From Caulobacteraceae bacterium (GTDB lineage: Bacteria; Pseudomonadota; Alphaproteobacteria; Caulobacterales; Caulobacteraceae), in contig CANJLK010000006.1 in NCBI GenBank assembly GCA_947475465.1, positions 1-64,000 of the forward strand: a stretch of 64,000 nt of DNA, given 5' to 3'. A program made the translations under genes and the position numbers. Below are positions 40,122 through 57,472 of the stretch, one piece after another (position 1 is the stretch's first letter; the number at the start of each line of letters is the position of its first letter). The notes under the pieces were generated by a model. It was given only the letters and a program-made list of their open reading frames with translations. It was not told the origin of the DNA and did not search any database.

Positions 40122-40487
40122 CTACGTCCGCAAGCGGCGCGGCGCAGCTAGGTCGTAGCTCGACCGTATCCATTGGCCGACGTGTTCCCAGTCCGTGTCG
40201 GCTGGGGCCAGGTTGATGGCGATCCAGCCGGCCGGGCCGATATAGGCGGGCCAGCTATAGAGATCGGGATCGGCCTCGATCAGCATGTCCTGCTGGTCCC
40301 GCCCCGTAGTCTTGAGGCAGACGACCGTCATCCCGTCGCCGTGATGGTTGTGGCGGAAGTAGGCGAACATCTTGCCCGCCACCTGGAAGGCCTGGGTTCC
40401 ATGCGAGACCTTCTCCGCGGTCTCCGGAAGCGCGAGGCAAAGGCTACGGAGGCGTTCGAGAGCGGCGTCTGGCGCGGGACTGAGCAT
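40122..40487 (-). CDS. MmcQ/YjbR family protein
   Basis: 'RLRSLCLALPETAEKVSHGTQAFQVAGKMFAYF'. Confidence 0.88.
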   Translation of the reverse strand: MLSPAPDAALERLRSLCLALPETAEKVSHGTQAFQVAGKMFAYFRHNHHGDGMTVVCLKTTGRDQQDMLIEADPDLYSWPAYIGPAGWIAINLAPADTDWEHVGQWIRSSYDLAAPRRLRT

Positions 40488-41680
40488 CAGGCCCCCGGGA
40501 CGCCCAGGCCCTGCGCCGTCTGCCTCAGCGCGGCCTGGTCGGCGGGCGAACCGGCGAAGGCCCGCACAGCCTCGCGATAGTCGCCGGCGGCCTGGTCGGG
40601 GTGGCCCAGGACCATGCGCGCCCGGATCAGCCGCTCCCAGCCCGCCCGGTCGCGCGGGTTGGCCTTCAGTTCGCCGGCGAGCTTGGCGACCATGCCCTCG
40701 ATCATAGCCGCCCGGCCCTGGTCGGACATCTGGCCGGCGGCGGCGACCTGATCGGCCGTGGGGCCCGGTGGCGGCGCTGAGGCGGCCATGGCCGGCGGCG
40801 GCGAGGTCTCGGGCGGCAGGCGCCTGGAGATGTCCTCGCCGCGGGCCTGGGCGACCTTGATCACGAAGGCGCGGACCTCGGGCGCCCAGGGCGCGTCGGC
40901 CGGCGCGGTCTTCAGCATGGCGATCCAGTCGTTCATCGCCCCCTTGGCGTCGCCGGCCTGGTCCTTGGCCATGGCCAGGTAGTAGCGGGCGCGCGGGTCG
41001 GCGGGGTCGGCGGCCAACGCCTTCTTGAAGGCGTCCTGCGCCTCGTGGCTGACCTGGCCCTGGTTGGCGAGCACCGTCGCCTCGCCCTGGGCCGAGAGAT
41101 ACTCAGCGTTCCCGGGGTCCAGGGCGGCGGCCTTGCCATAGGCCACGGCGGCCTCTGCGTTGCGGCCCACCTGCAGGTAGGACCAGCCGAGCATCCGCCA
41201 GCCTTCGGCGTTGCCCGGCGTCTCCTTCATCCGGGTTTCCAGTTCGGCGATCATGCTGGGCACGTCGCCGTTCGGGTGGCCGGCGGCGTCCACGGCGGGC
41301 GCGGTCCCGGGCGTCGGATGGACGGAGGCGACATCGGGGCGCCCGATCTTCAGATAGAGGCCGGTGGCGGCCAGCACCACCACGGCGGCGACGCCCAGCG
41401 CCAGGCCCAGGAGGGCGCGCTCGCTGAGCGGCCTGGTTCTGTCCGGAGCGGCCCGGCCCTCGGCCAGGACGCGGCGCTTGACGTCGGTGCGCAGGGCCTC
41501 GGCCTCGGCCGGCGGCAGCGCGCCTCCGGCTGCCTGGCTGTCGATCTCGTCAAGCTGGGCCTTCAGCACCTCGACCGTGTCGTTGCGGGGGCTGCGCGTC
41601 GCATCGTGGCGGCGGATCAGGGGGATCGCCAGGCCGACGGCGGCCAGGACCGTCATCAGGGTCAGGATGATCCACAGCAT
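40487..41680 (-). CDS. ccmI: Cytochrome c maturation protein CcmI (TPR)
   Basis: 'MLWIILTLMTVLAAVGLAIPLIRR' + 'VLKAQLDEIDSQAAGGALPPAEAEALRTDVKRR'; context. Confidence 0.9.
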   Translation of the reverse strand: MLWIILTLMTVLAAVGLAIPLIRRHDATRSPRNDTVEVLKAQLDEIDSQAAGGALPPAEAEALRTDVKRRVLAEGRAAPDRTRPLSERALLGLALGVAAVVVLAATGLYLKIGRPDVASVHPTPGTAPAVDAAGHPNGDVPSMIAELETRMKETPGNAEGWRMLGWSYLQVGRNAEAAVAYGKAAALDPGNAEYLSAQGEATVLANQGQVSHEAQDAFKKALAADPADPRARYYLAMAKDQAGDAKGAMNDWIAMLKTAPADAPWAPEVRAFVIKVAQARGEDISRRLPPETSPPPAMAASAPPPGPTADQVAAAGQMSDQGRAAMIEGMVAKLAGELKANPRDRAGWERLIRARMVLGHPDQAAGDYREAVRAFAGSPADQAALRQTAQGLGVPGA

Positions 41681-42142
41681 TCAGTGCGCCTCGTCGGTGT
41701 TGATCAGGGCCGCCAGCTCCGCCTCTTCGGCGGCGTCCAGCGGCGCGGGCGGGCCGGAACGGCCGCGCATGTAGATCGCCGCGCCCGCGCCGCCGGCCAG
41801 CAGCACGGCCAGCGGCCCCAGCCAGAGCGCCAGGGTGTCGGCCTGGAACGGGGGCTTCAGGCGCACGAAATTGCCATAGCGCTGGACGAGGTAGGCCACG
41901 GCCTGATCGTCGGTGTCGCCGGCCAGCAGACGCTCGCGCAGGATGATCCGCAGATCGTGGGCCAGGGCGGCGTCGGACTCGTCGATCGACTGGTTCTGGC
42001 AGACCACGCAGCGAAGGTCGCGGCTGAGCGAGCGGGCGCGGGCCTCGAGCTTCGGGTCGGGCAACTGCTCGTCGGGCGTGACGGCCCGGACCGGGCCGGC
42101 CATGGCGGCCAGGACCGCCGCCAGGAGGATCAGGCGCCTCAT
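41681..42142 (-). CDS. ccmH: Cytochrome c maturation protein CcmH/CycL
   Basis: 'LSRDLRCVVCQNQSIDESDAALAHDLRIILRERLLAGDTDDQAVAYLVQRYGNFVRLKPP'. Confidence 0.96.
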   Translation of the reverse strand: MRRLILLAAVLAAMAGPVRAVTPDEQLPDPKLEARARSLSRDLRCVVCQNQSIDESDAALAHDLRIILRERLLAGDTDDQAVAYLVQRYGNFVRLKPPFQADTLALWLGPLAVLLAGGAGAAIYMRGRSGPPAPLDAAEEAELAALINTDEAH

Positions 42143-42687
42143 GATTCCGCCCTCAGCCGCGCCAGCAGCGGCTCCAGTTTGCGGTTCCAGTCCTCGACGC
42201 TGATCGCGCCCACATGGCGGTAGCGGACGCGGCCCTTCCGATCGATGACGAAGGTCTCGGGCACGCCGGACACGCCCAGGTCGATGCCCGCGCGCCCTGT
42301 GCGGTCGTTGCCGACGCGGGCATAGGGGTCGCCCCGCTCGGCCAGCCAGCCGGCCCCGTCGGCGGGCTCATCCTTCCAGTCCAGCCCATGGATCGTCACC
42401 CCCTGTTCCTTCAGCCGCATGAGCATCGGATGCTCCACCCGGCAGGCGACGCACCAGGAGGCGAAGACATTAAGCATCACCGGTTCGCCGGAGAGCTGAT
42501 CGGTGGCCAGGCCGCCACGGCCCGACAGCGCGTCGCTTGGCCGGACCGGCGGCAGGTTGAAGGCCGGCACGGGCTTGCCGATCATCATCGAAGGCAACAG
42601 CGTCGGATCGCGCCGCAGGCCGACCGCGAAACCGACCAGGACCAGGACGAAGATCGCCGCCGGCGCGAAGGCGAGGAGGCGCTTCAT
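42139..42687 (-). CDS. ccmG: Thiol:disulfide interchange protein CcmG/DsbE
   Basis: MKRLLAFAPAAIFVLVLVGFAVGL; 'NVFASWCVACRVEHPML'; 4-nt overlap with ccmF. Confidence 0.95.
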   Translation of the reverse strand: MKRLLAFAPAAIFVLVLVGFAVGLRRDPTLLPSMMIGKPVPAFNLPPVRPSDALSGRGGLATDQLSGEPVMLNVFASWCVACRVEHPMLMRLKEQGVTIHGLDWKDEPADGAGWLAERGDPYARVGNDRTGRAGIDLGVSGVPETFVIDRKGRVRYRHVGAISVEDWNRKLEPLLARLRAES

Positions 42688-44666
42688 TCGGCAGCCGCCG
42701 TTGTTGCGGCGGCGGGTGAGCGGACCATGACGCGGCTGGGCGCCCCAAGCCGCAGACGCCGGTCGCTCAGCGAGACGAGCCCGCCCAGCGCCATGGTGAA
42801 CCCGCCCACCCAGATCCACATGATCAGCGGATGGTCCCAGAGCCTGACGACGACCCCGCCGCCGTCCTGCACGTCGCCCACCGAGACATAGAAGTTGCCC
42901 GCCGGAGAGACATGGATGCCGGCGATGGTGGTCTGGGTCTGGCTGGAGGCGTACATCCGCCGCTCGCTGGTCAGCTTATAGGGCCCGCCGCGACCCTCGA
43001 TCAGGAACCGCGCCTGATGGGCCTGGTAATTGGGGCCCTCCACCGGCCCCAGGGCGTCCAGGGTCAGGGTGCGGCCGGCGAAGGCGACCTTGTCGCCCGG
43101 GTGCATGGTCAGCACCTTGTCGCTTTCCCAGGCGGTGACGCTGGCGATGCCCAGGGTCAGCAGGCCAAGCCCGGCGTGGGCCATGACCAGGCCATAGAGC
43201 GCGATCGGCGTGGCGCGGATCGTGCGGCCAAGTTCGGCGCGGCCGGCCCACCAGCGGCGGCCCAGGATGGCCAGAGCGCCCGCGACCAGCCAGGCGGCGA
43301 GCGCCAGGGCGCCGGCGGTGAGCATCATGCGCCACCCCACCGTGACCAGCGCGACCAGCAGCACGGCCGCGGCGATCCCCGCCGGGACGCGCAGGCGGCG
43401 GACAAGGCGGGCGAGTTCATCGCGCTTCCAGTTGAGCATCGGCCCGAACGGCGAGATCAGCAGCAGCGGAATAGCCAGGGGCGCGAAGGTTCGGGCGTAG
43501 TAGGGCGGACCCACCGAAATCTTGTCGCCGCGCAGGATCTCCACGAAGACCGGGCTGAAGGTGCCCAGGAAGACGGTGGCTGCGAGGGCCGTCAGGAAGA
43601 GGTTGTTGAGCGTGATCCCGCCCTCCCGCGACAGGGGTGCGAAGAGCGCGCCGGTCTTCAGCTGCGGCGAGCGCCAGCCGAACAGCGCCAGCGCCACGCC
43701 GGTGGTCAGCGCGATGATCCCCAGGATGTAGATGCCGCGTTGCGGATCGACCGCGAAGGCATGCACGCTGGTCAGGATCCCCGAGCGCACCAGGAATGTG
43801 CCCACCAGGCTGAGCGAGAAGGTCAGGATGCACAGCAGGATAGTCCAGGTGACCAGCGCGCCGCGCCGCTCCAGCACCAGCGCCGAATGCAGCAGGGCCG
43901 TGCCCAGGATCCAGGGCATCAAGGAGGCGTTCTCAACCGGGTCCCAGAACCACCAGCCACCCCAGCCCAGCACATAGTATGACCAGCAGGAGCCGAGCGT
44001 GATGCCGGCGGTGAGCGGCGCCCAGGCGGCCAGCACCCACGGGCGGACCCATCGCGCCCAGGCCGCATCCACCCGGCCCTCGATCAGAGCGGCGATGGCG
44101 AAGGCGAAGGACACCGAGAAGCCGACGTAGCCCATGTAGAGCATCGGCGGATGCATCACGAGGCCGGGGTCCTGCAGCAGCGGATTGAGCTCCGTCCCCT
44201 CCAGCGGCGCGGGATCGAGCCGCAGGAACGGGTTGGAGGTGAAGATCAGGAACCCCAGGAAGGCCACGCCGATCAGGCCCTGGACGCCCAGCACCCGGGC
44301 CTGCAGCGTCTCGCGCAGGGTCCTGCCGAAGATCGCGACGCCCGCGCCATAGACCGCCAGAATCAGCACCCACAGCAGCATCGAGCCCTCGTGGCTGCCC
44401 CAGGTGGCGGCGAATCGGTAGACCGCCGGCTGCAGGGTGTGGCTATGGGCGGCGACCAGGGCGACGGAAAAATCGCACAGAAGATAGCTCGCCGCCAGGC
44501 AGCCGAAGGCCAGAATCACGAAGCCCGCCTGGAGAATCGTCGCGGTCCGCCCCAGCGCCATCAGCACCGGATCGCCCCTGTGTGCGCCCCAAAGCGGCGT
44601 CACCGTCTGGACCATCGCCAGGACGAACGCGAGAATCAGCGCGAACTGACCGACTTCCGCCGCCAT
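42684..44666 (-). CDS. ccmF: Heme lyase subunit CcmF
   Basis: 'ATWGSHEGSMLLWVLILAVYG', 'LGWGGWWFWDPVENASLMPWILGTALLHS' WWD motif. Confidence 0.97.
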   Translation of the reverse strand: MAAEVGQFALILAFVLAMVQTVTPLWGAHRGDPVLMALGRTATILQAGFVILAFGCLAASYLLCDFSVALVAAHSHTLQPAVYRFAATWGSHEGSMLLWVLILAVYGAGVAIFGRTLRETLQARVLGVQGLIGVAFLGFLIFTSNPFLRLDPAPLEGTELNPLLQDPGLVMHPPMLYMGYVGFSVSFAFAIAALIEGRVDAAWARWVRPWVLAAWAPLTAGITLGSCWSYYVLGWGGWWFWDPVENASLMPWILGTALLHSALVLERRGALVTWTILLCILTFSLSLVGTFLVRSGILTSVHAFAVDPQRGIYILGIIALTTGVALALFGWRSPQLKTGALFAPLSREGGITLNNLFLTALAATVFLGTFSPVFVEILRGDKISVGPPYYARTFAPLAIPLLLISPFGPMLNWKRDELARLVRRLRVPAGIAAAVLLVALVTVGWRMMLTAGALALAAWLVAGALAILGRRWWAGRAELGRTIRATPIALYGLVMAHAGLGLLTLGIASVTAWESDKVLTMHPGDKVAFAGRTLTLDALGPVEGPNYQAHQARFLIEGRGGPYKLTSERRMYASSQTQTTIAGIHVSPAGNFYVSVGDVQDGGGVVVRLWDHPLIMWIWVGGFTMALGGLVSLSDRRLRLGAPSRVMVRSPAAATTAAAE

Positions 44667-44761: not shown

Positions 44762-44815
44762 CACAGGCTCGGCGGCCGGTCGGCTGCAGGGGTAGTCGTG
44801 GCGTCAGGGGTTGGG

Positions 44816-47266
44816 ATGTCGGAGACCTTTCGGATCGCGATCGTCGGCTCGGGACCTTCGGGCCTGAGCGCGGCCGCGCATGCGGCGGCGAAGGGTATCA
44901 GCCACGTCCTGCTGGAGAAGACCGACCACCTGTCCGACACCATCTACCGCTACCAGAAGGGCAAGCACGTCATGGCGACGCCGGCCCAGCTGGTGTTGCG
45001 CTCGGACTGCGACTTCGCCGCCGGCAAGCGCGAGGCGGTGCTGGAGCAGTGGAACGCCGACGCCAGGAAGGCCGGCGTCAACGTCCTCTACAACGCCGAG
45101 GCCAAGGCGATCACCGGCGCCAAAGGCGATTTCTCGATCGCGCTGACGAACGGCGACGTCATCAAGGCCGAGACCATCATCCTGGCCATTGGCACCCAGG
45201 GCAATCCGAACCTGATGCGCTGCGACGGCGCGTCCCTGCCCCACGTCCAGTATTCGCTGGATGACCCGGCGGCCTTCATCGACGAGCACATCTTCGTCTT
45301 CGGCGGCGGCGACGCGGGCATCGAGAACGCACTGGGCCTGGCCGCCGACCAGGCCCAGGCCAATGTGGTCACCCTGGTCAACCGCTCAGCCGACTTCGCC
45401 CGGGCCAAGGAGGCCAACGTCAAGGCGCTGATGCAGGCCAGGGACAACGGCCGGATCACCATCCTGGCCGAGACGACCCCCAGCCTGATCGAGGCCGGGT
45501 GGGTGACGGTCGACACGCCGCAGGGCTCGGCGCGGCACAAGTGCGACCGGATCATCGCGCGGATGGGCTCGTCCCCGCCGCGCAAATTCGTCGAGGCCGC
45601 CGGCATCGCCTTCACCAGCGACGCGCCCAGCGCCTTCCCGCACCTGTCGGCGACCTTCGAGACCACCACGCCCGGCATCTACGTCATCGGCGCGCTGGCG
45701 GGCTATCCGCTGATCAAGCACTGCATGAACCAGGGCCACGACGTGGTCGAATACATCGACGGGCGCACAGACCTGAAGCCCGCCGACGAACCGATCCTGG
45801 AAGCCAAGCTGGCCGGACTGCCCGGCAGGATGTCGGTGTCGGAGTGGCTGGAATACCTGCGCAGCCGGGTGGAGATCCTCTACGGCCTGTCGGCCCTGCA
45901 GATGCGGGAATTCCTGCTCGATTCCGACGTCCGCGCCTTCCGGGCCGGCGAGACGATCTTCGAGCGCAACATGATCGGGTCGTCCCTGTTCGGCATCGCC
46001 CAGGGTTCGGTGCGCGTCGAGATCGATCCCAAGAACCCGTCCAACACCGTGCCGATCGGCGCGGGCTCGATCTTCGGCGAGGTCGGGCTGATCTCCGGCC
46101 GCCGCCGCGGGGCGACCATCCGCGCCGGCGAGGACTGCATCGTCGTGGAAATCCCCCGCACCGCGGCGCTGAAGCTGATGGCCCAGGTGGCCGAGGCCCG
46201 CGAGACGGTGAACCGGATCACCACCGAGCGGCAGATCCTGCAGATCTTCAAGTCGGGCCTCGCGCCCTCCGACCTCGAGGAGGTGCTGGCCGGCGCCCAG
46301 GTCATGGAGGTCAGGCCCGGCCAGGCGATCATCAAGGAAGGCGAACTGGGCGACGACCTCTACATCATCCGCTCAGGCTCGATGATCGTGGAGAAGGCGG
46401 TGGGCGGGAAGCAGGTCTTCATGTCCTACGTCCCGGCCGGCTCCTACTCCGGCGAGATGGCGATGATCGACGGCGGCCCGCGGACGGCCACGGTCAAGGC
46501 CGCGATCCGCTCGCAGGTGGTGCGCCTGCCGGCCGACCCGTTCCGCAAGCTGCTGGCCCGCAAGCCCGACCTCGACGCCAAGATGCGCGGCGACATGGCC
46601 GCGCGCCGCCAGGTGAACGCCTTTGTCGAGGACCAGAAGGACAGCTTCGACGGCGTCGTCGACATGTATTCCTCGGTAGCCAGCTTCCTGATCGACCAGG
46701 GGATCGGCGAGGCCACCGACGTGCTCTTGATCGACGAGAGCCTCTGCGTCGGCTGCGACAACTGCGAGAAGGCCTGCGCCGACAGCCACGAGGGCCTGTC
46801 ACGGCTGAACCGCGAGGCCGGCAAGACCTACGCCAAGATCCACGTGCCGACCTCGTGCCGGCACTGCGAACATCCCTACTGCATGACCGACTGCCCGCCC
46901 AACGCCATCCAGCGCGGGCCGGACGGCGAGGTGTTCATCTCCGACGCCTGCATCGGCTGCGGCAACTGCCAGCGCAACTGCCCCTATGACGTGATCCAGA
47001 TGGACAAGCCGCCGCCCGAAAAGCCGGGCCTGTTGTCCTGGATGCTGTTCGGCAAGGGCCCCGGCCCCGGCGAGCCCGACAAGGCCTGGCGCGAGAAGCA
47101 GCCGAAACCAGCCGTGGAGAAGGGCAAGGTCGCCATCAAATGCGACATGTGCATCGGCAAGGCCGGGGGGCCGGCCTGTGTGCGGGCCTGTCCGACCGGG
47201 GCGGCGATCCGGGTGTCGCCGGAGGACTTCCTCTCGGTGGCCCTTCTGGACCGTGGGGCGAACTGA
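44816..47266 (+). CDS. FAD-dependent NAD(P)-binding reductase (YpdA/TrxR-like fold) fused to two cyclic-nucleotide-binding domains and four [4Fe-4S] ferredoxin motifs
   Basis: 'IAIVGSGPSGLSAAAHAAAKG' (FAD), 'IFVFGGGDAGIENALGLA' (NAD(P)), cNBDs 'FGEVGLISGRRRGATIRA' and 'SGEMAMIDGGPRTATVKA', clusters CVGCDNCEKACAD / CRHCEHPYCMTDCP / CIGCGNCQRNCP / CDMCIGKAGGPACVRACP. Possible alternative GTG start at 44798. Confidence 0.93.
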   Translation: MSETFRIAIVGSGPSGLSAAAHAAAKGISHVLLEKTDHLSDTIYRYQKGKHVMATPAQLVLRSDCDFAAGKREAVLEQWNADARKAGVNVLYNAEAKAITGAKGDFSIALTNGDVIKAETIILAIGTQGNPNLMRCDGASLPHVQYSLDDPAAFIDEHIFVFGGGDAGIENALGLAADQAQANVVTLVNRSADFARAKEANVKALMQARDNGRITILAETTPSLIEAGWVTVDTPQGSARHKCDRIIARMGSSPPRKFVEAAGIAFTSDAPSAFPHLSATFETTTPGIYVIGALAGYPLIKHCMNQGHDVVEYIDGRTDLKPADEPILEAKLAGLPGRMSVSEWLEYLRSRVEILYGLSALQMREFLLDSDVRAFRAGETIFERNMIGSSLFGIAQGSVRVEIDPKNPSNTVPIGAGSIFGEVGLISGRRRGATIRAGEDCIVVEIPRTAALKLMAQVAEARETVNRITTERQILQIFKSGLAPSDLEEVLAGAQVMEVRPGQAIIKEGELGDDLYIIRSGSMIVEKAVGGKQVFMSYVPAGSYSGEMAMIDGGPRTATVKAAIRSQVVRLPADPFRKLLARKPDLDAKMRGDMAARRQVNAFVEDQKDSFDGVVDMYSSVASFLIDQGIGEATDVLLIDESLCVGCDNCEKACADSHEGLSRLNREAGKTYAKIHVPTSCRHCEHPYCMTDCPPNAIQRGPDGEVFISDACIGCGNCQRNCPYDVIQMDKPPPEKPGLLSWMLFGKGPGPGEPDKAWREKQPKPAVEKGKVAIKCDMCIGKAGGPACVRACPTGAAIRVSPEDFLSVALLDRGAN

Positions 47267-47269
47267 TCC

Positions 47270-48142
47270 GTGGCAAGGAGCGCGACAGTATCGCAGAGGC
47301 GCCGGTCCTCGACGCACGAGAGCTTCCTCAGACACAAGGGATTCCTGTTCCTCAAGGTGGCGGTGTTCGTCTGTGTCGCCGCCGTCGCCGCCTATTTCTT
47401 CCAGCATGCCCGCCCGCGGCCCGGCGGCGGAACACCGCTGGGCTATTTCCTGGGCACGGTCGGCGCGGGCCTGATCGTCTGGCTGGCGCTGCTAGGCGTG
47501 CGAAAGCGCGCGGTGAGCAGCGGCCACTATTCCCTGAAGGCCTGGGTGTCGGCCCACGTCTATCTCGGCCTGTCGCTCATCGTGATCGCCACCCTGCACA
47601 CCGGGTTCCAGTTCGGGTGGAACGTGCACACCCTGGCCTATGGGCTGATGCTGCTGGTGATCGCCTCCGGAGCCATCGGCGTCTGGGCCTATGTCGCCCT
47701 GCCCGCCCGGCTCAGCGAGAACCGCGGGGAGACCACGCGCAAACAGATGCTGGCGCAGATCCAGTCCCTGGACGAACTGATCCACGAGGCCGCTCAGGGC
47801 TTCCCGCGCGACACCGCCGCCATCGTCCGGATCTCGCTGGAGCAGACCGACATCGGCGGCGGCTTCTGGCGGCGGCTGTTCGAGGACTACCGTGACTGTG
47901 CGAACCTGCGCGCGCTGCGCGAGATCGAGGCGGCCCAGCGGACGGCCGGCGCCCATGAGGCCAAGGCCCTGGGCGAGGTGGCGGTTCTGATGCGGCGCAA
48001 GGGCGATGCGCTGGGCCTGGCGCGGCGGCAAATGCACATCACGGCCCTTTTGGAAGCTTGGCTGTTCGTGCACGTTCCGGCCACATTCGCCCTGCTGGCC
48101 GCGCTCACCGTGCACATCGTCAGCGTCTTCGCGTACTGGTGA
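47270..48142 (+). CDS. Membrane protein, putative di-heme cytochrome b-type electron carrier
   Basis: About 5 hydrophobic TMs; H-X13-H in TM3 (HVYLGLSLIVIATLH) and H-X13-H in TM5 (HVPATFALLAALTVH); cotranscribed arrangement (3-nt gap). Confidence 0.75.
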   Translation: MARSATVSQRRRSSTHESFLRHKGFLFLKVAVFVCVAAVAAYFFQHARPRPGGGTPLGYFLGTVGAGLIVWLALLGVRKRAVSSGHYSLKAWVSAHVYLGLSLIVIATLHTGFQFGWNVHTLAYGLMLLVIASGAIGVWAYVALPARLSENRGETTRKQMLAQIQSLDELIHEAAQGFPRDTAAIVRISLEQTDIGGGFWRRLFEDYRDCANLRALREIEAAQRTAGAHEAKALGEVAVLMRRKGDALGLARRQMHITALLEAWLFVHVPATFALLAALTVHIVSVFAYW

Positions 48143-48143
48143 C

Positions 48144-50036
48144 ATGACCCAAGCGATCACCCTGCGACTGATCACCCGCCAGGCCGGCGGCGGCGAGATC
48201 GTCCGGACCCGTCGGATCGACAGCGGCGAGGCGATGATCGGCCGCGCCCAGGGTTGCGACATCTACCTGCCCGACCTGTCGGTCGACCCGCAGCACGCCC
48301 TGATGCGGGTCGCGGGCCGCAACCGGGTGACCATCGAATCCCTGACCGGCGTCGCCTTCCAGGTGGACGGCAAGCAGACCCTGCGCGCCGACCTGGACGC
48401 CGGCCGTGGCCAGATGGCGAGCTTCGGGGCCTTCGACCTCAGCGTCAGCGAGGGCGCCGAGGACGACATCGCCGTGGCGGTGACGCGCCGGGAGGAGGAG
48501 CACGCGCCCTCCCCCAGCCTGTTCTCGCTGAAGGCCAGCCTGTTCGGGCGCCGGCGGATGGCCTGGGCCCTTGGCCTGACGATCCTGGCGCTTTGCCTGA
48601 TCGTGCCGCTGGCCGGCGCCTCCCTGTTCCGTCACCTGCACATCCATCCCGACCAGCAGTGGTCGACGGGACCGCTTTCCAAGGCCCACGCCTTCCTGGA
48701 AAAGGACTGCCAGTCCTGCCACCAGGCCAAGTTCGTCGCCGTGCGCGACCAGGCATGCCTGGCCTGCCACCAGGCGGGCCGAACGCCGGCCCAGACCCTG
48801 GCCCTGAACGCCGACCTCGGTCGGCGCGGCAGTCCGTTCATTCCCAGACTGATTTCGGACCACGCGGGCCACGACCGCCTGCTCAAGGCCATGCCGCCGC
48901 CGCCCACCCTGGGCGGCAAGGTGAAGGGGCTGTTCGGCAAGGCCTTCAACCACCCCAACGACCGCTGCGCGAGCTGCCACCTGGAGCATACCGGCCCCAA
49001 GGGTCCGGTGATCGAGGCCGACCGGCCGATCAAGCCGACCCTGGTCGTCGCCACCACCTGCGGCGGCTGCCACGGCCAGCTGAAGTCGAGGCTGCCCTCG
49101 ACCGGGTTGATCGACACCCCGGACTGGAAGCGCCATCCGGACTTCCGGCCCCTGGTGACCGTCTCCGCCGAGGGCCCGGCGCCCAGGATCGAGCGGATCG
49201 CCCTGACCGCGGACCCGCAGGAACATTCCGGCCTGGTGTTTTCCCACCGCCAGCACCTGGATCCCACCGGCGGCGTCGCCCGCATGGGGGTCGGCCTGGG
49301 CGCGGCGCGCGGCTACGGCGGGGCGCTCACCTGCATCTCCTGCCACCGACCGACACCGGGCGCCGGCGGCTTCAAGCCGATCGAGATGGAGCGCGACTGC
49401 GCGGCCTGTCACGCCCTGGGCTTCGCCTCGGCCGGCGGTGAGATCAAGCTCCTGCCGCACGGTGACGCGGGCAAGGTGATGGCCACCCTGCAAGCGTTCT
49501 ATGGCGGCGGGTCAGGCGCGGGCGCCGAGCCCCAGCGCCGCCTGCCCGGCGACTTCCGACCGCAGTCCGCGGCCCCCAGGGCGGCGAACCCGGCCATGGC
49601 TTCAGGCGCCTTCCGCCAGGCCTTCTCGCCCGGCGGGACCTGCTACGGCTGCCACCGGATCTCCTGGGACGGCGATGGCCCAATGGGCGTCAAGGTGGCC
49701 AAGGTCCACCTGGCCTCACGCTTCCTGCCGCGTGGCGCCTTCGACCACAGCGTGCCCGCCCACAAGGGCGACGGCCTGGGCGCCTTCAACTGCGTGGATT
49801 GTCACAAGGCCAAGACCTCGGAGCATGCCGAGGACCTGTTGCTGCCGGGCGTCGCCAAGTGCGCCACCTGCCATGGCAAGACGGAACACCAGACGCCGGC
49901 CGCCGCCAGCGGCCAGTGCGCCGACTGCCACAGCTATCACAAGCCCGGCAAGGCCACGCCCACCGGCCAGAGCCGCACCTTCGAGGCGATCTTCGCGCCG
50001 GCCGATGGGCCGGCGCGGGGGATCCCGGGCGGGTAG
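48144..50036 (+). CDS. FHA domain - TM - decaheme c-type cytochrome
   Basis: FHA 'AMIGRAQGCDIYLPDLSVDPQHALMRVAGRNRVTIESLTG'; one TM; 10 CXXCH motifs (CQSCH, CLACH, CASCH, CGGCH, CISCH, CAACH, CYGCH, CVDCH, CATCH, CADCH). Confidence 0.92.
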   Translation: MTQAITLRLITRQAGGGEIVRTRRIDSGEAMIGRAQGCDIYLPDLSVDPQHALMRVAGRNRVTIESLTGVAFQVDGKQTLRADLDAGRGQMASFGAFDLSVSEGAEDDIAVAVTRREEEHAPSPSLFSLKASLFGRRRMAWALGLTILALCLIVPLAGASLFRHLHIHPDQQWSTGPLSKAHAFLEKDCQSCHQAKFVAVRDQACLACHQAGRTPAQTLALNADLGRRGSPFIPRLISDHAGHDRLLKAMPPPPTLGGKVKGLFGKAFNHPNDRCASCHLEHTGPKGPVIEADRPIKPTLVVATTCGGCHGQLKSRLPSTGLIDTPDWKRHPDFRPLVTVSAEGPAPRIERIALTADPQEHSGLVFSHRQHLDPTGGVARMGVGLGAARGYGGALTCISCHRPTPGAGGFKPIEMERDCAACHALGFASAGGEIKLLPHGDAGKVMATLQAFYGGGSGAGAEPQRRLPGDFRPQSAAPRAANPAMASGAFRQAFSPGGTCYGCHRISWDGDGPMGVKVAKVHLASRFLPRGAFDHSVPAHKGDGLGAFNCVDCHKAKTSEHAEDLLLPGVAKCATCHGKTEHQTPAAASGQCADCHSYHKPGKATPTGQSRTFEAIFAPADGPARGIPGG

Positions 50037-50039
50037 GCT

Positions 50040-51401
50040 CTACACCACCCCGTAGGCCAGCATGGCGTCGGCGACTTTCTTGAAGCCGGCGATGTTGGCG
50101 CCGCGGACGTAGTCGATGACCTTGGAATCCTTGCGGGCGCCGTACTCGACGCAGCGCTCGTGAATCCCGGCCATGATGTCGAGCAGGTGCTGCTGCAGGT
50201 CGGCTTCCTTCCAGGAGATGCGCGCTGAGTTCTGACTCATCTCCAGGCCGGAGACCGCCACGCCGCCGGCGTTGGCCGCCTTGCCGGGCGCGTAGAGGAT
50301 CTGCGCCTGCTTGAAGACGTGCACGCCATCCAGGTCGGTCGGCATGTTGGCGCCTTCCGACACCGCCTTGCAGCCGTTGGAAACCAGGATCTGGGCCTCG
50401 GCGCCGTTGAGCTCGTTCTGGGTGGCGCAGGGCAGAGCCACGTCGCAGGCGACGCCCCAGGGCCGGGCGCCGTCGCCGTGGAAGCTCGCGCCCTTGAACT
50501 CTTTCACATACTCGGAAATCCGCCCACGGCGGCGGCCCTTCAGTTCCTTGATCCAGTCGATCTTGGCCTGGTCGATGCCGTCCGGGTCGTGGATGAAGCC
50601 CTCGGAGTCCGACAGGGTCAGGACCTTGCCGCCCAGCTGGACGATCTTTTCGGCGGCGTGGGTCGCCACGTTGCCGGAACCGGAGATCACCGCGGTCTTG
50701 CCCTCGACGCTGTCGCCGACGTTCTTCAGCATATTCTGCAGGAAGTAGACCGCGCCGTAGCCGGTGGCCTCAGTGCGGATCAGGCTGCCGCCGTATTCCA
50801 GGCCCTTGCCGGTCAGGACGCCGGTGAACTGGTTGGTGATCCGCTTGTACTGGCCGAACATGTAGCCGATCTCGCGGCCGCCCACCCCGATGTCGCCGGC
50901 CGGCACGTCGATGTCCGCGCCGATGTGGCGGTAGAGCTCGGTCATGAACGACTGGCAGAACCGCATCACCTCATGGTCCGACTTGCCGCGCGGATTGAAG
51001 TTCGAGCCGCCCTTGCCGCCGCCCATGGGCAGGCCGGTGAGCGCGTTCTTGAAGGTCTGTTCGAAGGCCAGGAACTTCAGCACGCTTTCCGTCACCGACG
51101 GGTGGAAGCGGATGCCACCCTTGTAGGGGCCGATGGCGTTGTTGTTCTGCACCCGCCAGCCGCGCTGGACGCGGATATTGCCCCTGTCGTCTTCCCAGCA
51201 GACCCGGAAGCTCATCACCCGGTCCGGCTCGGCGATCCGGCGCAGGATCTGGTACTCGTGGTACTGTTCCTTGTCGGCGATGAACTCGAAAATGTCCTCG
51301 GCGACTTCCTGCACCGCCTGGACGAATTCCGGCTGCCCCGGATTGCGCCGGTTTACACCGGCGATGAACCGCTCGAGATCGACATGGTCGCTGGAAGCCA
51401 T
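50040..51401 (-). CDS. gdhA: NADP-specific glutamate dehydrogenase
   Basis: 'GPYKGGIRFHPSV', 'GLPMGGGKGGSNFNPRGKSD'. Confidence 0.95.
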   Translation of the reverse strand: MASSDHVDLERFIAGVNRRNPGQPEFVQAVQEVAEDIFEFIADKEQYHEYQILRRIAEPDRVMSFRVCWEDDRGNIRVQRGWRVQNNNAIGPYKGGIRFHPSVTESVLKFLAFEQTFKNALTGLPMGGGKGGSNFNPRGKSDHEVMRFCQSFMTELYRHIGADIDVPAGDIGVGGREIGYMFGQYKRITNQFTGVLTGKGLEYGGSLIRTEATGYGAVYFLQNMLKNVGDSVEGKTAVISGSGNVATHAAEKIVQLGGKVLTLSDSEGFIHDPDGIDQAKIDWIKELKGRRRGRISEYVKEFKGASFHGDGARPWGVACDVALPCATQNELNGAEAQILVSNGCKAVSEGANMPTDLDGVHVFKQAQILYAPGKAANAGGVAVSGLEMSQNSARISWKEADLQQHLLDIMAGIHERCVEYGARKDSKVIDYVRGANIAGFKKVADAMLAYGVV

Positions 51402-51599
51402 TGCAAATTTCCCCCGAAATTCAGCTGCGGGCGCCGGAGAACCGACGCCGATTTCGCCGTTGCGGACGCAAGCTTAGCAGGCATCCGCGGCAGAGTTTAA
51501 GTGACATTCTTAAAAGCCCGTCCAAGCCTTGCCTTAGAGGGCTTCACAAACCCGTGGAAATCGCCACAACTCGGAGGATTGAGCGGGGGGGCTCCACCA

Positions 51600-53246
51600 A
51601 TGACCAAGGCATCTGACCTCTTTATTTCCTGCCTCGAAGAAGAGGGCGTGGAATATGTCTTCGGCGTGCCGGGCGAGGAGAACCTCGACTTCCTGGACAG
51701 CCTGTCGCGCTCGACCAAGATCAAGCTGATCCTGACGCGCCACGAACAGGGCGCGGGGTTCATGGCCGCCACCTATGGGCGTCACACCGGCAAGGCCGGC
51801 GTCTGCGTCGCCACGCTCGGCCCCGGCGCCACCAATTTCGTGACCGCGGCGGCCTATGCCCAGCTGGGCGGCATGCCGATGATGATGGTCACCGGCCAAA
51901 AGCCGATCAAGAGCTCAAAACAGGGCCGGTTCCAGATCCTCGACGTGGTGGCGATGATGGGGCCGCTGACGAAGTACACCCACCAGCTGGCCTCGGCCGA
52001 CAACATCCCGTCGCGGATCCGCGAAGCCTTCCGCCTGGGCCAGGAAGAAAAGCCCGGCGCCGTCCACCTGGAATTCCCCGAGGACATCGCCCACGAGCAG
52101 ACCGATTCCACGCCCATTCCGAAGAGCAATGCGCGCCGCCCGGTGGCCGACGAAAAATCGGTCCGCGCCGCGGCCAAACGGATCGAGCAGGCCAAGTCGC
52201 CGATCCTGGTGATCGGCGCGGGCGCCAACCGGACCATGACCAGCCGGATGCTGTCCCAATTCATCGACAAGACCGGCATTCCGTTCGTCTCGACCCAACT
52301 CGGCAAGGGCGTGGTCGACGAGCTGTCCCCGAAGTTCCTGGGCTGCGCGGCCCTGTCCGCGGGCGATTTCGTGCACCGCGCCATCGGCGCGGCCGACCTG
52401 ATCATCAACGTCGGTCACGACGTCATCGAGAAGCCGCCGTTCTTCATGCAACGGGGCGGCGCGGAGGTGATCCACATCAACTTCCGCTCGGCCGAAGTCG
52501 ATCCGGTCTACTTCCCGCAGTACGAGGTGATCGGCGACATCGGCAATTCGATCTGGCAGATCAAGGAGGACATCCTGCCCCAGGCCGGATGGGATTTCTC
52601 CAAGATGTTCAAGGCCCGCGAGGCGGAGGTGGCGCACACCGCCAGCCAGGTCGACGACATGCGCTTCCCGATCTATCCGCAGCACCTGGTGGCGCAGATC
52701 CGCCAGGCCATGCCGGCCAACGGGATCATCTGCCTGGACAACGGGGTCTATAAGATCTGGTTCGCCCGCAACTATCCCGCGCGGATGACCAACACCGTCC
52801 TGCTCGACAACGCCCTGGCCACCATGGGCGCGGGCCTTCCCTCCGCCATGGCCTCGGCCATGGTCTATCCGGACCGCAAGGTCATGGCCGTCTGCGGCGA
52901 CGGCGGCTTCATGATGAACAGCCAGGAGATGGAGACCGCGGTCCGGCTGAAGCTCAACATCACCGTGCTGATCCTCAACGACAATTCCTACGGAATGATC
53001 CGCTGGAAACAGGCCAACATGGGCTTCAAGGACTGGGGCCTCACCTACGGCAATCCGGACTTCGTGAAGTACGCCGAGAGCTACGGGGCCAACGGCTACC
53101 GTGTAGGCTCGGCCGCCGAGCTTCCGACGCTCCTGGAAAAATGCCTGAACACGCCTGGCGTGAACCTGATCGAGGTCCCCGTGGACTACAGCGACAACGA
53201 CCCGATCCTGAACAAGCAGATCAAGGAACTGAGCGCCGCCCTCTGA
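51600..53246 (+). CDS. Thiamine-diphosphate-dependent enzyme, acetolactate synthase large subunit-like
   Basis: 'YVFGVPGEENLDFLDSL', 'ATLGPGATNFVTAAAYAQL', 'GDGGFMMNSQEMETAVRLKLNITVLILNDNSYGMI' TPP motif. Confidence 0.92.
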   Translation: MTKASDLFISCLEEEGVEYVFGVPGEENLDFLDSLSRSTKIKLILTRHEQGAGFMAATYGRHTGKAGVCVATLGPGATNFVTAAAYAQLGGMPMMMVTGQKPIKSSKQGRFQILDVVAMMGPLTKYTHQLASADNIPSRIREAFRLGQEEKPGAVHLEFPEDIAHEQTDSTPIPKSNARRPVADEKSVRAAAKRIEQAKSPILVIGAGANRTMTSRMLSQFIDKTGIPFVSTQLGKGVVDELSPKFLGCAALSAGDFVHRAIGAADLIINVGHDVIEKPPFFMQRGGAEVIHINFRSAEVDPVYFPQYEVIGDIGNSIWQIKEDILPQAGWDFSKMFKAREAEVAHTASQVDDMRFPIYPQHLVAQIRQAMPANGIICLDNGVYKIWFARNYPARMTNTVLLDNALATMGAGLPSAMASAMVYPDRKVMAVCGDGGFMMNSQEMETAVRLKLNITVLILNDNSYGMIRWKQANMGFKDWGLTYGNPDFVKYAESYGANGYRVGSAAELPTLLEKCLNTPGVNLIEVPVDYSDNDPILNKQIKELSAAL

Positions 53247-53279
53247 CCTTCCGTCACGCCAGCAGAAGTCGATAGCCCC

Positions 53280-54722
53280 ATGGCCGCCCTCAAAGACTCC
53301 TACCCGCTCTACCTCGCCAACGTCGCCCAGACGCCGAACCTCGACCTTGTGGTGACCGACAAGTTCACCGGCGAGGTGGCGACCCGGGTCGCCCAGGCCG
53401 ACGCGGCGACCATCGACGCGGGCATAGCCGCGGCCGTCGAGGCCGCCGAGCCCATGGCCCGCATGGCCGCCTACGAGCGCCAGGCGGTGTTGGCCCATTG
53501 CGTGACCCGGTTCACGGAGCGCTTCGACGAACTGGCCATGGCGCTGTGCATCGAGGCCGGCAAGCCGATCCGCGACGCCCGCGGCGAGGTCGGCCGGCTG
53601 ATCGACACGTTCCGCATCGCGGCGGAAGAATCCGTGCGCATCACTGGCGAAGTCCAGCCGTTGGACATCTCGCCCCGCGCCAAGGGCTACCAGGGGATCT
53701 GGAAGCGGGTGCCCATCGGCCCCTGCTCCTTCGTCTCGCCCTTCAACTTCCCGCTCAACCTGGCGGCCCACAAGATCGCACCGGCGCTCGCAGTCGGCTG
53801 CCCGTTCGTCATGAAGCCCGCCTCGCGCACTCCCCTGGGCGCGATCATCATCGGCGAGGTCCTGGCCGAGACCGACCTGCCAAAGGGCGCCTTCTCGATC
53901 CTGCCGGCCCACCGCGAGGGTGCGGACCTGTTCACCACCGACGAGCGCCTGAAACTGCTGTCCTTCACCGGCTCGCCTGAAGTGGGCTGGGACCTGAAGG
54001 CCCGGGCCGGCAAGAAGAAGGTGGTGCTGGAACTGGGCGGCAACGCCGCGGTGATCGTCGACGAGGACATCACGGGCGCCGACCTGGACGACGCCGTGGA
54101 GCGGATCATCTTCGGGGCCTTCTATCAGTCCGGCCAGTCTTGCATCGGCGTCCAGCGGATCATCGTCCATGCCAGCCTCTACGACGAGTTCAAAGCCCGG
54201 CTGGTGGCCAAGACCAGGGCCCTGATCGCCGGCGATCCGAAGGACGAAAAGACCTTTATCGGGCCGATGATCGACGTGAAGGAGGCCACCCGCCTGGACA
54301 ACTGGATCCAGGAGGCCAGCGCTGGCGGGGCCACCCTTTTGTGCGGCGGCAAGCGCGAGGGTGCCATGCTGGAAGCCACCTTGATGGAAGGCGTCGACCG
54401 CTCGGCCAGGCTCTACAGGGAAGAGGCCTTCGGGCCCGTCGCGATCCTCTCGAAATTCAACGAGTTTTCCGACGCCCTCGACGAGGTGAACGACTCCAAA
54501 TTCGGCCTGCAGGCCGGGGTCTTCACCCGCGACCTCTACAAGATGTTCGAGGCCTGGGACCGGCTGGACGTGGGCGGCGTGGTGATCGGCGACGTGCCGA
54601 GCTACCGGGTCGACAACATGCCCTACGGCGGGGTCAAGGATTCAGGACTTGGACGTGAAGGCGTGCGCTTCGCCATGGAGGACATGACGGAAATTCGAAA
54701 CCTCGTCATCCGTCGGCGATAA
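53280..54722 (+). CDS. Aldehyde dehydrogenase family protein
   Basis: 'SFVSPFNFPLNLAAHKIAPALAVGCPFVMKPA', 'ELGGNAAVIV', 'QSGQSCIGVQR' catalytic Cys. Confidence 0.95.
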   Translation: MAALKDSYPLYLANVAQTPNLDLVVTDKFTGEVATRVAQADAATIDAGIAAAVEAAEPMARMAAYERQAVLAHCVTRFTERFDELAMALCIEAGKPIRDARGEVGRLIDTFRIAAEESVRITGEVQPLDISPRAKGYQGIWKRVPIGPCSFVSPFNFPLNLAAHKIAPALAVGCPFVMKPASRTPLGAIIIGEVLAETDLPKGAFSILPAHREGADLFTTDERLKLLSFTGSPEVGWDLKARAGKKKVVLELGGNAAVIVDEDITGADLDDAVERIIFGAFYQSGQSCIGVQRIIVHASLYDEFKARLVAKTRALIAGDPKDEKTFIGPMIDVKEATRLDNWIQEASAGGATLLCGGKREGAMLEATLMEGVDRSARLYREEAFGPVAILSKFNEFSDALDEVNDSKFGLQAGVFTRDLYKMFEAWDRLDVGGVVIGDVPSYRVDNMPYGGVKDSGLGREGVRFAMEDMTEIRNLVIRRR

Positions 54723-54762: not shown

Positions 54763-55620
54763 TTGCAGGGGCCTGGGGAGGCCGTAGTGCTGACGATCGC
54801 ACAGATAACCGATCTGCATATAACGACCGACACCGACCCGGTGAATCTGTGGCGGAACGCTGAGCGTTTGCAGCACGTCCTGAAATCCATTCACGCGCTG
54901 AAGCCCCGGCCGGTGGCGATCTTCGCCTCCGGCGACCTCGTCGACCGCGGCGAGCCGGAAGAATACGAAGCGCTGATCGAGATCCTGCGGCACGTGGAGA
55001 TTCCAATCTATTTCGGGATCGGCAATCACGACCGCCGCGAGCCGTTCCTGGCCGCGCTCAGCGGCCACGGCGTCCAGACCGATCCCAACGGCTTCGTGCA
55101 ATACGCCGTCGACTTCGGCGACCTGCGGGTCATCGTCTGCGACACCCTGGATGAGGAAAGCGAGGGCGGGGCGTTCTGCGAGGACCGCGCGGCCTGGCTG
55201 GCCAAGACGCTGGACGAGGCGCCTGACCAGCCGACGGTCATCGCTTTGCACCACCCGCCCATCGCCAGCGGCATCCGCTGGATGGATCCCGATCCCAAGG
55301 CCGGCTGGATCGCCCGGCTGGCCAATGCCGTGCGCGGACACGATCAGGTGCGCTCGATCCTCTGCGGTCACGTTCACCGGGCTTTCAACGGCGTGCTTGC
55401 CGGCCGCGCGGTGGCCGCGGCGCCGGCCACGTCGATCCAGCTCACCCTGGACCTCACGCCGGTCGACATGCGCAATCCCGACGGCCGCGAGATGCTGGTG
55501 GAGGAACCGCCCGGCTTCGCCGTGGTGATGGCCTATGAGGGCCAGGTGAACACCCACGTCTGCGTGGCAGGCGACTATGCGCCTGCGGTGGCCTATACCT
55601 CTCCATTCGTGAGGGGCTAG
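54763..55620 (+). CDS. Metallophosphoesterase, class III cyclic nucleotide phosphodiesterase (CpdA)-like
   Basis: 'IAQITDLHI', 'SGDLVDRGE', 'GIGNHDRRE', 'LHHPP', 'LCGHVHRAF' metal-site motifs. GTG at 54787 is an alternative start. Confidence 0.87.
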   Translation: MQGPGEAVVLTIAQITDLHITTDTDPVNLWRNAERLQHVLKSIHALKPRPVAIFASGDLVDRGEPEEYEALIEILRHVEIPIYFGIGNHDRREPFLAALSGHGVQTDPNGFVQYAVDFGDLRVIVCDTLDEESEGGAFCEDRAAWLAKTLDEAPDQPTVIALHHPPIASGIRWMDPDPKAGWIARLANAVRGHDQVRSILCGHVHRAFNGVLAGRAVAAAPATSIQLTLDLTPVDMRNPDGREMLVEEPPGFAVVMAYEGQVNTHVCVAGDYAPAVAYTSPFVRG

Positions 55621-55633
55621 CGGGGGGCTGCAA

Positions 55634-57472
55634 GTGCCAGGGGTTCAAAGGGGCGTATTGGGCCGGCTGGCCGGCGGCCTGGCCGCCCTGCGGACGGTCG
55701 CGGGGCGATGGGGCGATGCGGCGGTCGTCGGGCTTGTCGCCGTCGCCTGTTCGGTCCTGGCCCTGGCGTTGAACGCCACGACGCCTGTCCGCTCGGTCGA
55801 GAACCTGATGTACGACCTGCGCGTGTCGTTCAACGCGCCGGCGGCCCAGCCCGACTTCGCGATCATCAAGATCGACGACGCGGCCACCGCAGCCATGCAG
55901 GAGGCGTCTCCCTGCCATTGCCTGGCGCCGATCAACAAGGCCTGGCTCGGGGACCTGATCGCGGCCCTGGACGCCAAGGGCGTCAAGGCGATCGGCGTCG
56001 ACTACCTGCTCGACACCTGGTCCTCGCCGGAGGAATTCGCCGACTTCAACGCGCGCATTGCACAGGTGAAGGCGCCCATCGTGGTCGCGGTAGATCCTGA
56101 TCGGCAGGCCGGCGTCGACTACCCGGTGTCACCCAAGCTGATCTATTCCGACGCCCGGGCCCTGACCCACAAGGACTACGACGACGTCATCCGGGACTAC
56201 GACCCCAAGCCCAGCCAGTACCTCGCCCTGGCGGCGGCGGTCGACGCCGCGATCGGCCGGAAGCCTCCCGAGCACCCTTTCCTGATCCGCTACCGGCAGC
56301 CTGACGCACGCCTGGGGGCGGAGAACCTGGGCGCTATCAGTCCATCGTTCTCCGCGGCCTTCGTGCCCTTCGTTCCCGAAGTCCAGCTGAAGAACAAGAT
56401 CGTCTTCATCGGCAGCGTCACCCGATCGGCTACTGCAGATTCCAGCACGCCCAAGGAGGACATGCACTCAACGCCCCTGCGCTATCGGCCGGGCCACGAC
56501 CACGGGACACCGGGCGTCGAAGTGCATGTGCACGCCCTGTCCCAGATGATGGCCGGCGACCAGATTCACAAGCCCGGCCCGTTCTGGGCCGGAGCCCTTG
56601 TGCTGGTGGCGGGACTTGGGGGCGCGGCCCTCGGCCGAGGCAGCAACCGCTGGTGGGTTGCCGTGGCGATCGTCCTGCTGATCCTGGGCGGCTGTTTCAT
56701 CGGCGCGATCTATTTCTTCCGCTGGTACAACATCATCACGCCGGTGATGGCGCCGACCATGTGCTTCGCCTTTGCCTTCTTCCTGATGAGCCGCCTGGCC
56801 GCTGTGGAGTTGCAGAACCAGCGTGCGCTCTATTCCTCCACCCTGGAACGCTACCTGGCGCCCCAGGTGATCGACCGCATCGTCGAGGGTCGCGAGGCGG
56901 TGAAGATCGGCGCCGAGGAGCGCGAGATCACCGTCATGGTCTCCGACCTGGAGAATTTCTCGAACCTCGTGGCCACGCTGCCGCTGGAACCCTTCTCTAA
57001 AGTGATCAACGGCTACTTCGACGGCCTGATCGAGATCCTCTGGAAGCATGAGGCGATGATCGACAAGATGACCGGCGATGGCCTGATCGTCATCTTCGGC
57101 GCCCCGATCGCCATCCCGGACCACGCCCAGCGGGCGATCGCCTGCGTCAAGGAGATCGACACCTTCGCCGAGGCCTACCGCGAACGGATGCTGGCGGAGC
57201 ACGGCATCTTCGGGCGCACCCGGATGGGACTGGATTCCGGCATCGGGCTGGTCGGGAATTTCGGCGGCGAGCGCCGGTTCAACTACACGGCCTATGGCGA
57301 GGTGGTGGTGATCGCCGCCCGCCTTGAAGCCGCCAACAAGACCTTCGGGACCCGCATCCTGTTCTCGGCGGAAACCAAGCGGCTGGCCGGAGAACCGGGC
57401 GACGTGCGCCCAGTCGGCAGTATCGAGCTGAAGGGCGTTCCATTGCCAATTGAAGCGTTTACGACGCTTTAA
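55634..57472 (+). CDS. CHASE2 sensor domain adenylate/guanylate cyclase
   Basis: N-terminal TM, CHASE2-like extracytoplasmic domain, TM bundle, class III cyclase 'TVMVSDLENFSNLVATLP', 'KMTGDGLIVIFGAP', 'FNYTAYGEVVVIAARLEAANK'. Confidence 0.92.
   Translation: MPGVQRGVLGRLAGGLAALRTVAGRWGDAAVVGLVAVACSVLALALNATTPVRSVENLMYDLRVSFNAPAAQPDFAIIKIDDAATAAMQEASPCHCLAPINKAWLGDLIAALDAKGVKAIGVDYLLDTWSSPEEFADFNARIAQVKAPIVVAVDPDRQAGVDYPVSPKLIYSDARALTHKDYDDVIRDYDPKPSQYLALAAAVDAAIGRKPPEHPFLIRYRQPDARLGAENLGAISPSFSAAFVPFVPEVQLKNKIVFIGSVTRSATADSSTPKEDMHSTPLRYRPGHDHGTPGVEVHVHALSQMMAGDQIHKPGPFWAGALVLVAGLGGAALGRGSNRWWVAVAIVLLILGGCFIGAIYFFRWYNIITPVMAPTMCFAFAFFLMSRLAAVELQNQRALYSSTLERYLAPQVIDRIVEGREAVKIGAEEREITVMVSDLENFSNLVATLPLEPFSKVINGYFDGLIEILWKHEAMIDKMTGDGLIVIFGAPIAIPDHAQRAIACVKEIDTFAEAYRERMLAEHGIFGRTRMGLDSGIGLVGNFGGERRFNYTAYGEVVVIAARLEAANKTFGTRILFSAETKRLAGEPGDVRPVGSIELKGVPLPIEAFTTL

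Follow-up and report, generated by a model that had tools for sequence, protein, structure and literature searches.

Bacterial cAMP is best known for its role in transcriptional signalling. A bacterial family that joins tandem cyclic nucleotide-binding (CNB) domains to a Pyrredox domain, "Bact_Pyrredox", was listed in 2007 with no function given (Kannan et al., PMC2246266). According to the same work, a glycine of the β2–β3 loop co-evolves with the arginine that contacts the cAMP phosphate. Among multihaem systems, the Geobacter proteins ExtM/N/O belong to a selenite/tellurite cluster (PMC5877670). The core protein of the locus described here carries the features of Bact_Pyrredox, namely tandem CNB domains, an N-terminal Pyr_redox domain and a phosphate-binding cassette (PBC) of the GEMGLISGRRRGATVRA type. 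The CNB-Pyrredox combination is already on record as a computationally defined family. Searches of the open-access literature for LVIVD multihaem proteins, for cNBDs with multihaem, FHA or EET, and for CNB with pyridine nucleotide and 4Fe-4S yielded no description of the gene set, be it of the Fe-S module, of the cytochromes across the envelope or of the linkage to a cyclase and a phosphodiesterase (PDE).

The core protein is encoded in the window, i.e., the whole stretch of 64,000 nucleotides of Caulobacteraceae DNA that was analysed (contig CANJLK010000006.1). By its closest named relatives, this MAG is Phenylobacterium-like. The core protein and its domains are as follows:

44816–47266, + strand: core protein, 816 aa, with a YpdA-like FAD/NAD(P) domain, tandem cyclic nucleotide-binding domains (cNBDs) and a predicted 4x[4Fe-4S] module
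44828–45736, + strand: FAD/NAD(P) two-dinucleotide-binding domain, YpdA/Bdr-like, no CXXC (residues 5–307; Pfam PF07992/PF13738)
45932–46186, + strand: cNBD1 (Pfam), PBC FGEVGLISGRRRGATIRA, E422 and R431 invariant
46304–46561, + strand: cNBD2 (Pfam), PBC SGEMAMIDGGPRTATVKA, E547 and R556 invariant
46721–47215, + strand: HycB/DmsB-like module predicted to hold four [4Fe-4S], 16 invariant Cys

The reading frame starts with the ATG at 44816 and stops at 47266; an in-frame GTG at 44798 is a possible alternative start. Pfam places Pyr_redox_3/2 at residues 5–307, two cNMP_binding domains at approximately 373–457 and 497–582, and Fer4 dicluster domains at 636–800, all above the gathering scores, which bears out what an earlier note on this DNA had proposed, a fusion of two cNBDs with a FAD/NAD(P) domain and a four-cluster Fer4 module. 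The nearest curated models, each scoring under its cut-off, are YpdA (flavin part), CRP (cNBDs) and HydN/DmsB/AegA (Fe-S part). AF2 modelled the FAD and cNBD domains of the whole protein with confidence, and the Fe-S region poorly (pLDDT <50 over most of residues 628–816). No DNA-binding domain was found in the Pfam and curated-model searches, and a function as a transcription factor was therefore ruled out.

The conservation of the protein was followed in an alignment of 32 core relatives with 45–78% identity. The fold closest to the FAD domain is that of the bacillithiol disulfide reductase YpdA/Bdr, the top Foldseek match (TMt 0.81), but the core differs from this enzyme in its fused cNBD and Fe-S modules, in its score against the YpdA model TIGR04018 (127.7 bits; cut-off 339.9) and at position 15, which lies in the first GxGxxG loop, corresponds there to the active-site Cys of YpdA and is S, A, G or C in the alignment. 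Because this cysteine is not conserved, the flavin domain is not a YpdA-type disulfide reductase, and since no cysteine of the FAD domain is invariant among the 32 sequences, disulfide-reductase function was rejected. The earlier note had also remarked that the flavin domain has no CXXC; none occurs in residues 1–330, and the absence of this redox-active disulfide rules out a thioredoxin reductase.

In both cNBDs, the canonical cAMP-type PBC pattern (FGE...R-x-A, with the β2–β3 Gly) is present. The two cassettes that had been quoted before are there, and their G/E/R/A contacts are invariant in the alignment: G421, E422, R431 and A433 in cNBD1, and G546, E547, R556 and A558 in cNBD2. Likewise invariant are G397 and G521, which by eye occupy the position of PKA Gly169 in the β2–β3 loop. 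Degenerate pockets, named beforehand as what would count against the proposal, were looked for in the sequence; Glu and Arg are kept, and the proposal withstood this check. The Fe-S region has four motifs of invariant cysteines (644, 647, 650, 654; 681, 684, 689, 693; 712, 715, 718, 722; 776, 779, 788, 792), which fit a predicted four-cluster ferredoxin of the HycB/DmsB type.

Full-length relatives of the core protein were found in 23 of the 297 genomes of the order and 36 of the 386 of the class, with a few more outside the class, and a pattern scan of GTDB species gave at least 575 confirmed relatives. The architecture is conserved far beyond chance, and the family is widespread in Alphaproteobacteria. 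Its previous description as "rare" was wrong, given more than 500 genome loci that encode core relatives and the listing of CNB-Pyrredox in 2007 (PMC2246266).

Two further genes follow the core gene:

47270–48142, + strand: membrane protein, likely a di-haem cytochrome b, 290 aa, with His pairs
48144–50036, + strand: FHA domain, one TM helix and decahaem cytochrome (ATG 48144; 10 CXXCH)

The membrane protein is likely a di-haem cytochrome b, as judged from two invariant His pairs, H96/H110 and H268/H282, each 14 apart and located in two hydrophobic segments; in di-haem transmembrane cytochromes b, two helices each carry two His at a distance of about 13–14 residues. Sequence searches of Pfam and PDB found no homologue of it. 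In one genome (G703), it is fused to the core into a single polypeptide of 1118 aa, and in another with the same fused layout (G808), the open frame comprises 1120–1125 aa and has the same C-terminus. The ATG of the FHA protein lies one base past the preceding stop. It has an N-terminal FHA domain, predicted to be cytoplasmic, a single TM helix at residues 185–203 of the longer reading frame, and a periplasmic decahaem part. Within the FHA domain, GR and His are conserved, and the position of the pThr-contacting Ser is D, E, N, S and others; as this usual contact is not kept, a docking role is suggested. The cytoplasmic FHA domain of YscD was also matched by Pfam in this region.

The gene context was determined by unbiased ORF clustering with 10-kb flanks for 81 loci (the window and 80 named ones). 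The membrane protein gene stands beside the core gene in 71 of them, with a median gap of 3 bp, and the decahaem gene is found in 76, all 10 CXXCH being present in 73 of these 76. In most of the 81 loci, the three genes are adjacent on one strand. The order core, membrane protein, FHA-decahaem protein repeats in 12 genomes mapped with wider flanks and on one plasmid, and this three-gene unit is kept in 10 of 11 more distant genomes.

At the far end of the window, two genes run on the opposite strand:

58308–62219, − strand: LVIVD-repeat cytochrome of 1303 aa with 10 haems (ten CXXCH), probably secreted
62227–64000, − strand: predicted outer-membrane β-barrel, ~18 strands, AlgE-like fold, 5' end beyond the window

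By eye, the LVIVD cytochrome has an apparent signal peptide. Its distribution over the 297 genomes of the order is identical to that of the core protein (23 genomes; hypergeometric p ~8e-35, a value that ignores shared ancestry), and includes one genome (G025) in which the two genes are 1.7 Mb apart. Of the 81 loci, 32 showed the LVIVD cytochrome and 23 the barrel, both counts being limited by the 10-kb flanks. The barrel is predicted to have an outer-membrane porin fold with about 18 long strands and AlgE as top match, at low confidence (pLDDT 56.5, pTM 0.62). PDB profile searches with the barrel, the membrane protein and the LVIVD cytochrome gave nothing useful. A nearby operon of c554-like cytochrome, HbpS lipoprotein, barrel and LVIVD cytochrome was present in 11 of the 13 maps with wide flanks (12 genomes and the plasmid); in G025 the LVIVD gene is the distant one mentioned above, and G177 is cut by short contigs.

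Just past the window (L147:2560–4518, −), an HbpS/GlcG-like lipoprotein, conserved in the operon, is encoded between the barrel and the c554-like cytochrome. After the cytochrome operon follow, by eye, genes for a two-partner-secretion transporter and for filamentous-haemagglutinin-like and CHAT-type proteins (L147:6084–14685, +). The terminal module varies among the 11 more distant genomes. In G673, G356 and G400 (L202–L205, L207–L208), a 5-haem protein of ~600–650 aa is encoded near the core, and LVIVD cytochrome and barrel were not found there; this suggests that terminal modules are exchangeable.

Two genes of cyclic nucleotide metabolism are located between the decahaem and the LVIVD genes:

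54763–55620, + strand: CpdA/SpdA-like metallophosphoesterase, metal-binding motifs all intact
55634–57472, + strand: CHASE2-class III nucleotide cyclase, metal Asp residues and Lys478 kept, Asn replaced by Val

The class III PDE motifs of the first (DxH, GD, GNHD, HH and GHxH) are intact. It scores higher to the SpdA than to the CpdA model, under the cut-off in both cases; SpdA is 2',3'-specific in vitro (PMC4222275). The window's cyclase has Asp438, Asp482, Lys478 and the Arg, and Val in place of the transition-state Asn, so that by its residues the window type would not qualify as a class III adenylate cyclase. The Caulobacteraceae-type CHASE2 cyclases (window 55634–57472; L152–L156) share GxVVVIAARLE and are otherwise well conserved; they may be inactive, regulatory, or of other chemistry. 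The Sphingomonadaceae and Brevundimonas cyclases near the gene set have canonical catalytic motifs including Asn.

CHASE2 cyclases were found in all 23 core-bearing genomes of the order. Their distance to the core could be assessed in 16 of these and was at most 15 kb in 13, against a chance rate estimated at 2%. The PDE occurs in 14 of the 23 and adjoins the cyclase in nearly all; the pair is adjacent even when apart from the core (G079, G122, G188, G246), also on contigs other than that of the core. A same-strand PDE gene was seen in 65 of the 81 loci, mostly straight after the decahaem gene. Cyclase and PDE are thus genetically linked to the core gene set in two orders. In the 11 more distant genomes, neither a cyclase nor a PDE was detected next to the core, so that evidence from linkage for cAMP control is confined to Caulobacterales and Sphingomonadales.

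Between the decahaem and PDE genes, the window contains, by eye, glutamate dehydrogenase, ThDP-lyase and aldehyde dehydrogenase genes (50040–54722), which also split the module in Phenylobacterium relatives. They were judged a lineage insertion because the PDE gene directly follows the decahaem gene in locus L070.

On the other side, genes for cytochrome c maturation diverge from the core gene:

42684–44666, − strand: CcmF (cytochrome c maturation), divergent neighbour
42139–42684, − strand: CcmG/DsbE-like thioredoxin-fold protein
41681–42142, − strand: CcmH
40487–41680, − strand: CcmI/CycH-like TPR protein

A CcmI-like TPR protein is encoded in 64 of the 81 loci. The gene set, except for the nearby cyclase (none was seen within 16 kb), is also carried by pMSHV (L162, NZ_CP020539.1), a conjugative megaplasmid of Sphingobium herbicidovorans, and the module can therefore be mobile. 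The annotation of pMSHV lists the barrel as hypothetical and calls the core just a "cyclic nucleotide-binding domain-containing protein". A ShlB/FhaC-type gene lies near the set on this plasmid (L162:11285–12964, −), and 11 further Sphingobium plasmids bear the core gene.

On balance, the core protein is probably the cytoplasmic head of an electron-transfer chain that crosses the envelope and is controlled by a cyclic nucleotide. This proposal builds on what was observed: the domains of the core, its conserved residues for ligand and cofactors, and the linkage, fusion and co-occurrence of the genes. What we infer is which ligand binds, that it gates the enzyme, that the cofactors are loaded, which way the electrons run and where they end. 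Electrons would pass from NAD(P)H via FAD to the four [4Fe-4S] clusters within the core protein, then to the two haems b of the 290-aa membrane protein, from there to the FHA-anchored periplasmic decahaem cytochrome, and on to the outer-membrane barrel and the LVIVD decahaem cytochrome. The final acceptor may be periplasmic, extracellular or at the cell surface; a binding site for a quinone or an acceptor was not identified. The tandem cNBDs, flanked by the flavin module on one side and the Fe-S module on the other, would bind a cyclic nucleotide that the linked CHASE2 cyclase produces and the linked PDE degrades, 3',5'-cAMP being the likeliest candidate, and could switch flavin-to-FeS transfer by domain movement. 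It is likely the adjacent haem b, decahaem and porin machinery, overlooked in the earlier note, that gives the core its role. A chain from NAD(P)H to the outer membrane, gated at the cNBDs, is the most economical reading, and we lean modestly towards it. The earlier idea of direct second-messenger control of an electron-transfer enzyme, its claim of rarity aside, is well supported at the level of anatomy and gene context by the intact PBCs, the lack of a DNA-binding domain and the linkage of cyclase and PDE in two orders.

The same chain may exist with cNBDs whose ligand is cGMP, another nucleotide or a different small molecule, or which do no more than stabilise the fold, the cyclase and PDE serving CRP-type regulators. 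The genome has further cNBD proteins, several of CRP-like size, and the residue after the PBC Arg, Gly in cNBD1 and Thr in cNBD2, leaves the preference for cAMP or cGMP undecided by sequence. The replaced Asn of the window cyclase, the SpdA-like PDE and the absence of a linked pair in distant lineages also speak for this alternative and are the reason for caution about cAMP control. However, Glu, Arg and the β2–β3 Gly, invariant in both cNBDs, form the pattern that is reported to co-evolve with cAMP binding (PMC2246266), cyclase and PDE are linked to the set in two orders, and the nearby Sphingomonadaceae and Brevundimonas cyclases are catalytically canonical. Binding of another ligand, or of none, is considered rather unlikely, yet it is the alternative that survives best.

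More doubtful is a chain that supplies cytoplasmic reductant for Ccm haem or apocytochrome handling, or for detoxification of, e.g., selenite or tellurite, instead of respiration. Such a role could be read from the position of the ccm genes, since ccmF/G/H/I adjoin the core in Caulobacteraceae and ccmF/H lie directly downstream in other families, and from the sub-threshold similarity of the LVIVD cytochrome to Geobacter ExtM/N/O. Yet neither ccmF nor ccmH was found within 20 kb of the core in G045, G104 and G197, while LVIVD cytochrome and core co-occur fully, and twenty haems in two cytochromes plus an outer-membrane barrel would exceed the needs of maturation. It is most improbable that electrons run inwards from an extracellular or periplasmic donor to NAD(P)+ or the quinone pool: the present results do not fix the direction, and porin-cytochrome conduits such as PioAB/MtoAB work both ways, but no energy-coupling subunit for uphill NAD(P)+ reduction was seen at the loci, and heads combining FAD/NAD(P) with low-potential-type Fe-S clusters would usually oxidise NAD(P)H.

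If the outward, cNBD-gated chain is true, cAMP would act on an electron-transfer enzyme directly and thereby switch respiration or surface reduction quickly, at the post-translational level; a CNB family on record since 2007 would gain a function, and Sphingomonadales and Caulobacterales would have a possible extracellular electron-transfer route, also on a conjugative megaplasmid. In its full form, the claim is tentative: an undescribed class of conduit, widespread in Alphaproteobacteria, in which cAMP from the set's own cyclase/PDE pair would directly switch an NAD(P)H-oxidising flavo-FeS enzyme that bypasses the quinone pool and delivers electrons through the di-haem b and FHA-docked decahaem proteins to an outer-membrane porin-cytochrome.

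Compared with known systems, the core shares with Bact_Pyrredox the tandem CNB, the N-terminal pyridine nucleotide-disulphide oxidoreductase and a nearly identical PBC consensus (GEMGLISGRRRGATVRA), whereas the Fe-S module, operon, cyclase/PDE, cytochromes and a function are not named in the table of that family (PMC2246266). The Cys4 motifs of its Fe-S module are arranged as in HycB/DmsB/HydN-type four-cluster subunits, but the module is the C-terminal part of a flavoprotein rather than a subunit of its own and scores under the NCBIfam cut-offs. Like AegA and other NADPH-FeS flavoproteins, it fuses Fer4 clusters to a FAD/NAD(P) domain; in contrast to AegA, the order is reversed and cNBDs are inserted, and the match is restricted to the Fer4 part. 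In S. meliloti, the redox-sensing cyclase CyaC also ties cAMP to the respiratory redox state, but in that case cAMP synthesis is under redox control and the target of cAMP is transcription (PMC10463352), whereas here cAMP is proposed to act on a redox enzyme. Membership in the Geobacter Ext group was rejected because the scores against the ExtM/N/O models are 73.6, 30.5 and 31.2 bits, far under the respective cut-offs of 800, 200 and 200. As in the Geobacter ext (ExtI porin, ExtM/N; PMC5877670) and Mtr/Pio systems, an outer-membrane β-barrel is encoded with multihaem cytochromes and a putative haem b inner-membrane protein, conduction being putative; unlike in these, the barrel has no PDB sequence match and is AlgE-like with ~18 predicted strands, and the input is a cNBD flavo-FeS protein. 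By analogy, and with no claim to Mtr membership, the set would function as a porin-cytochrome conduit does, but with an input at the inner membrane that is new.
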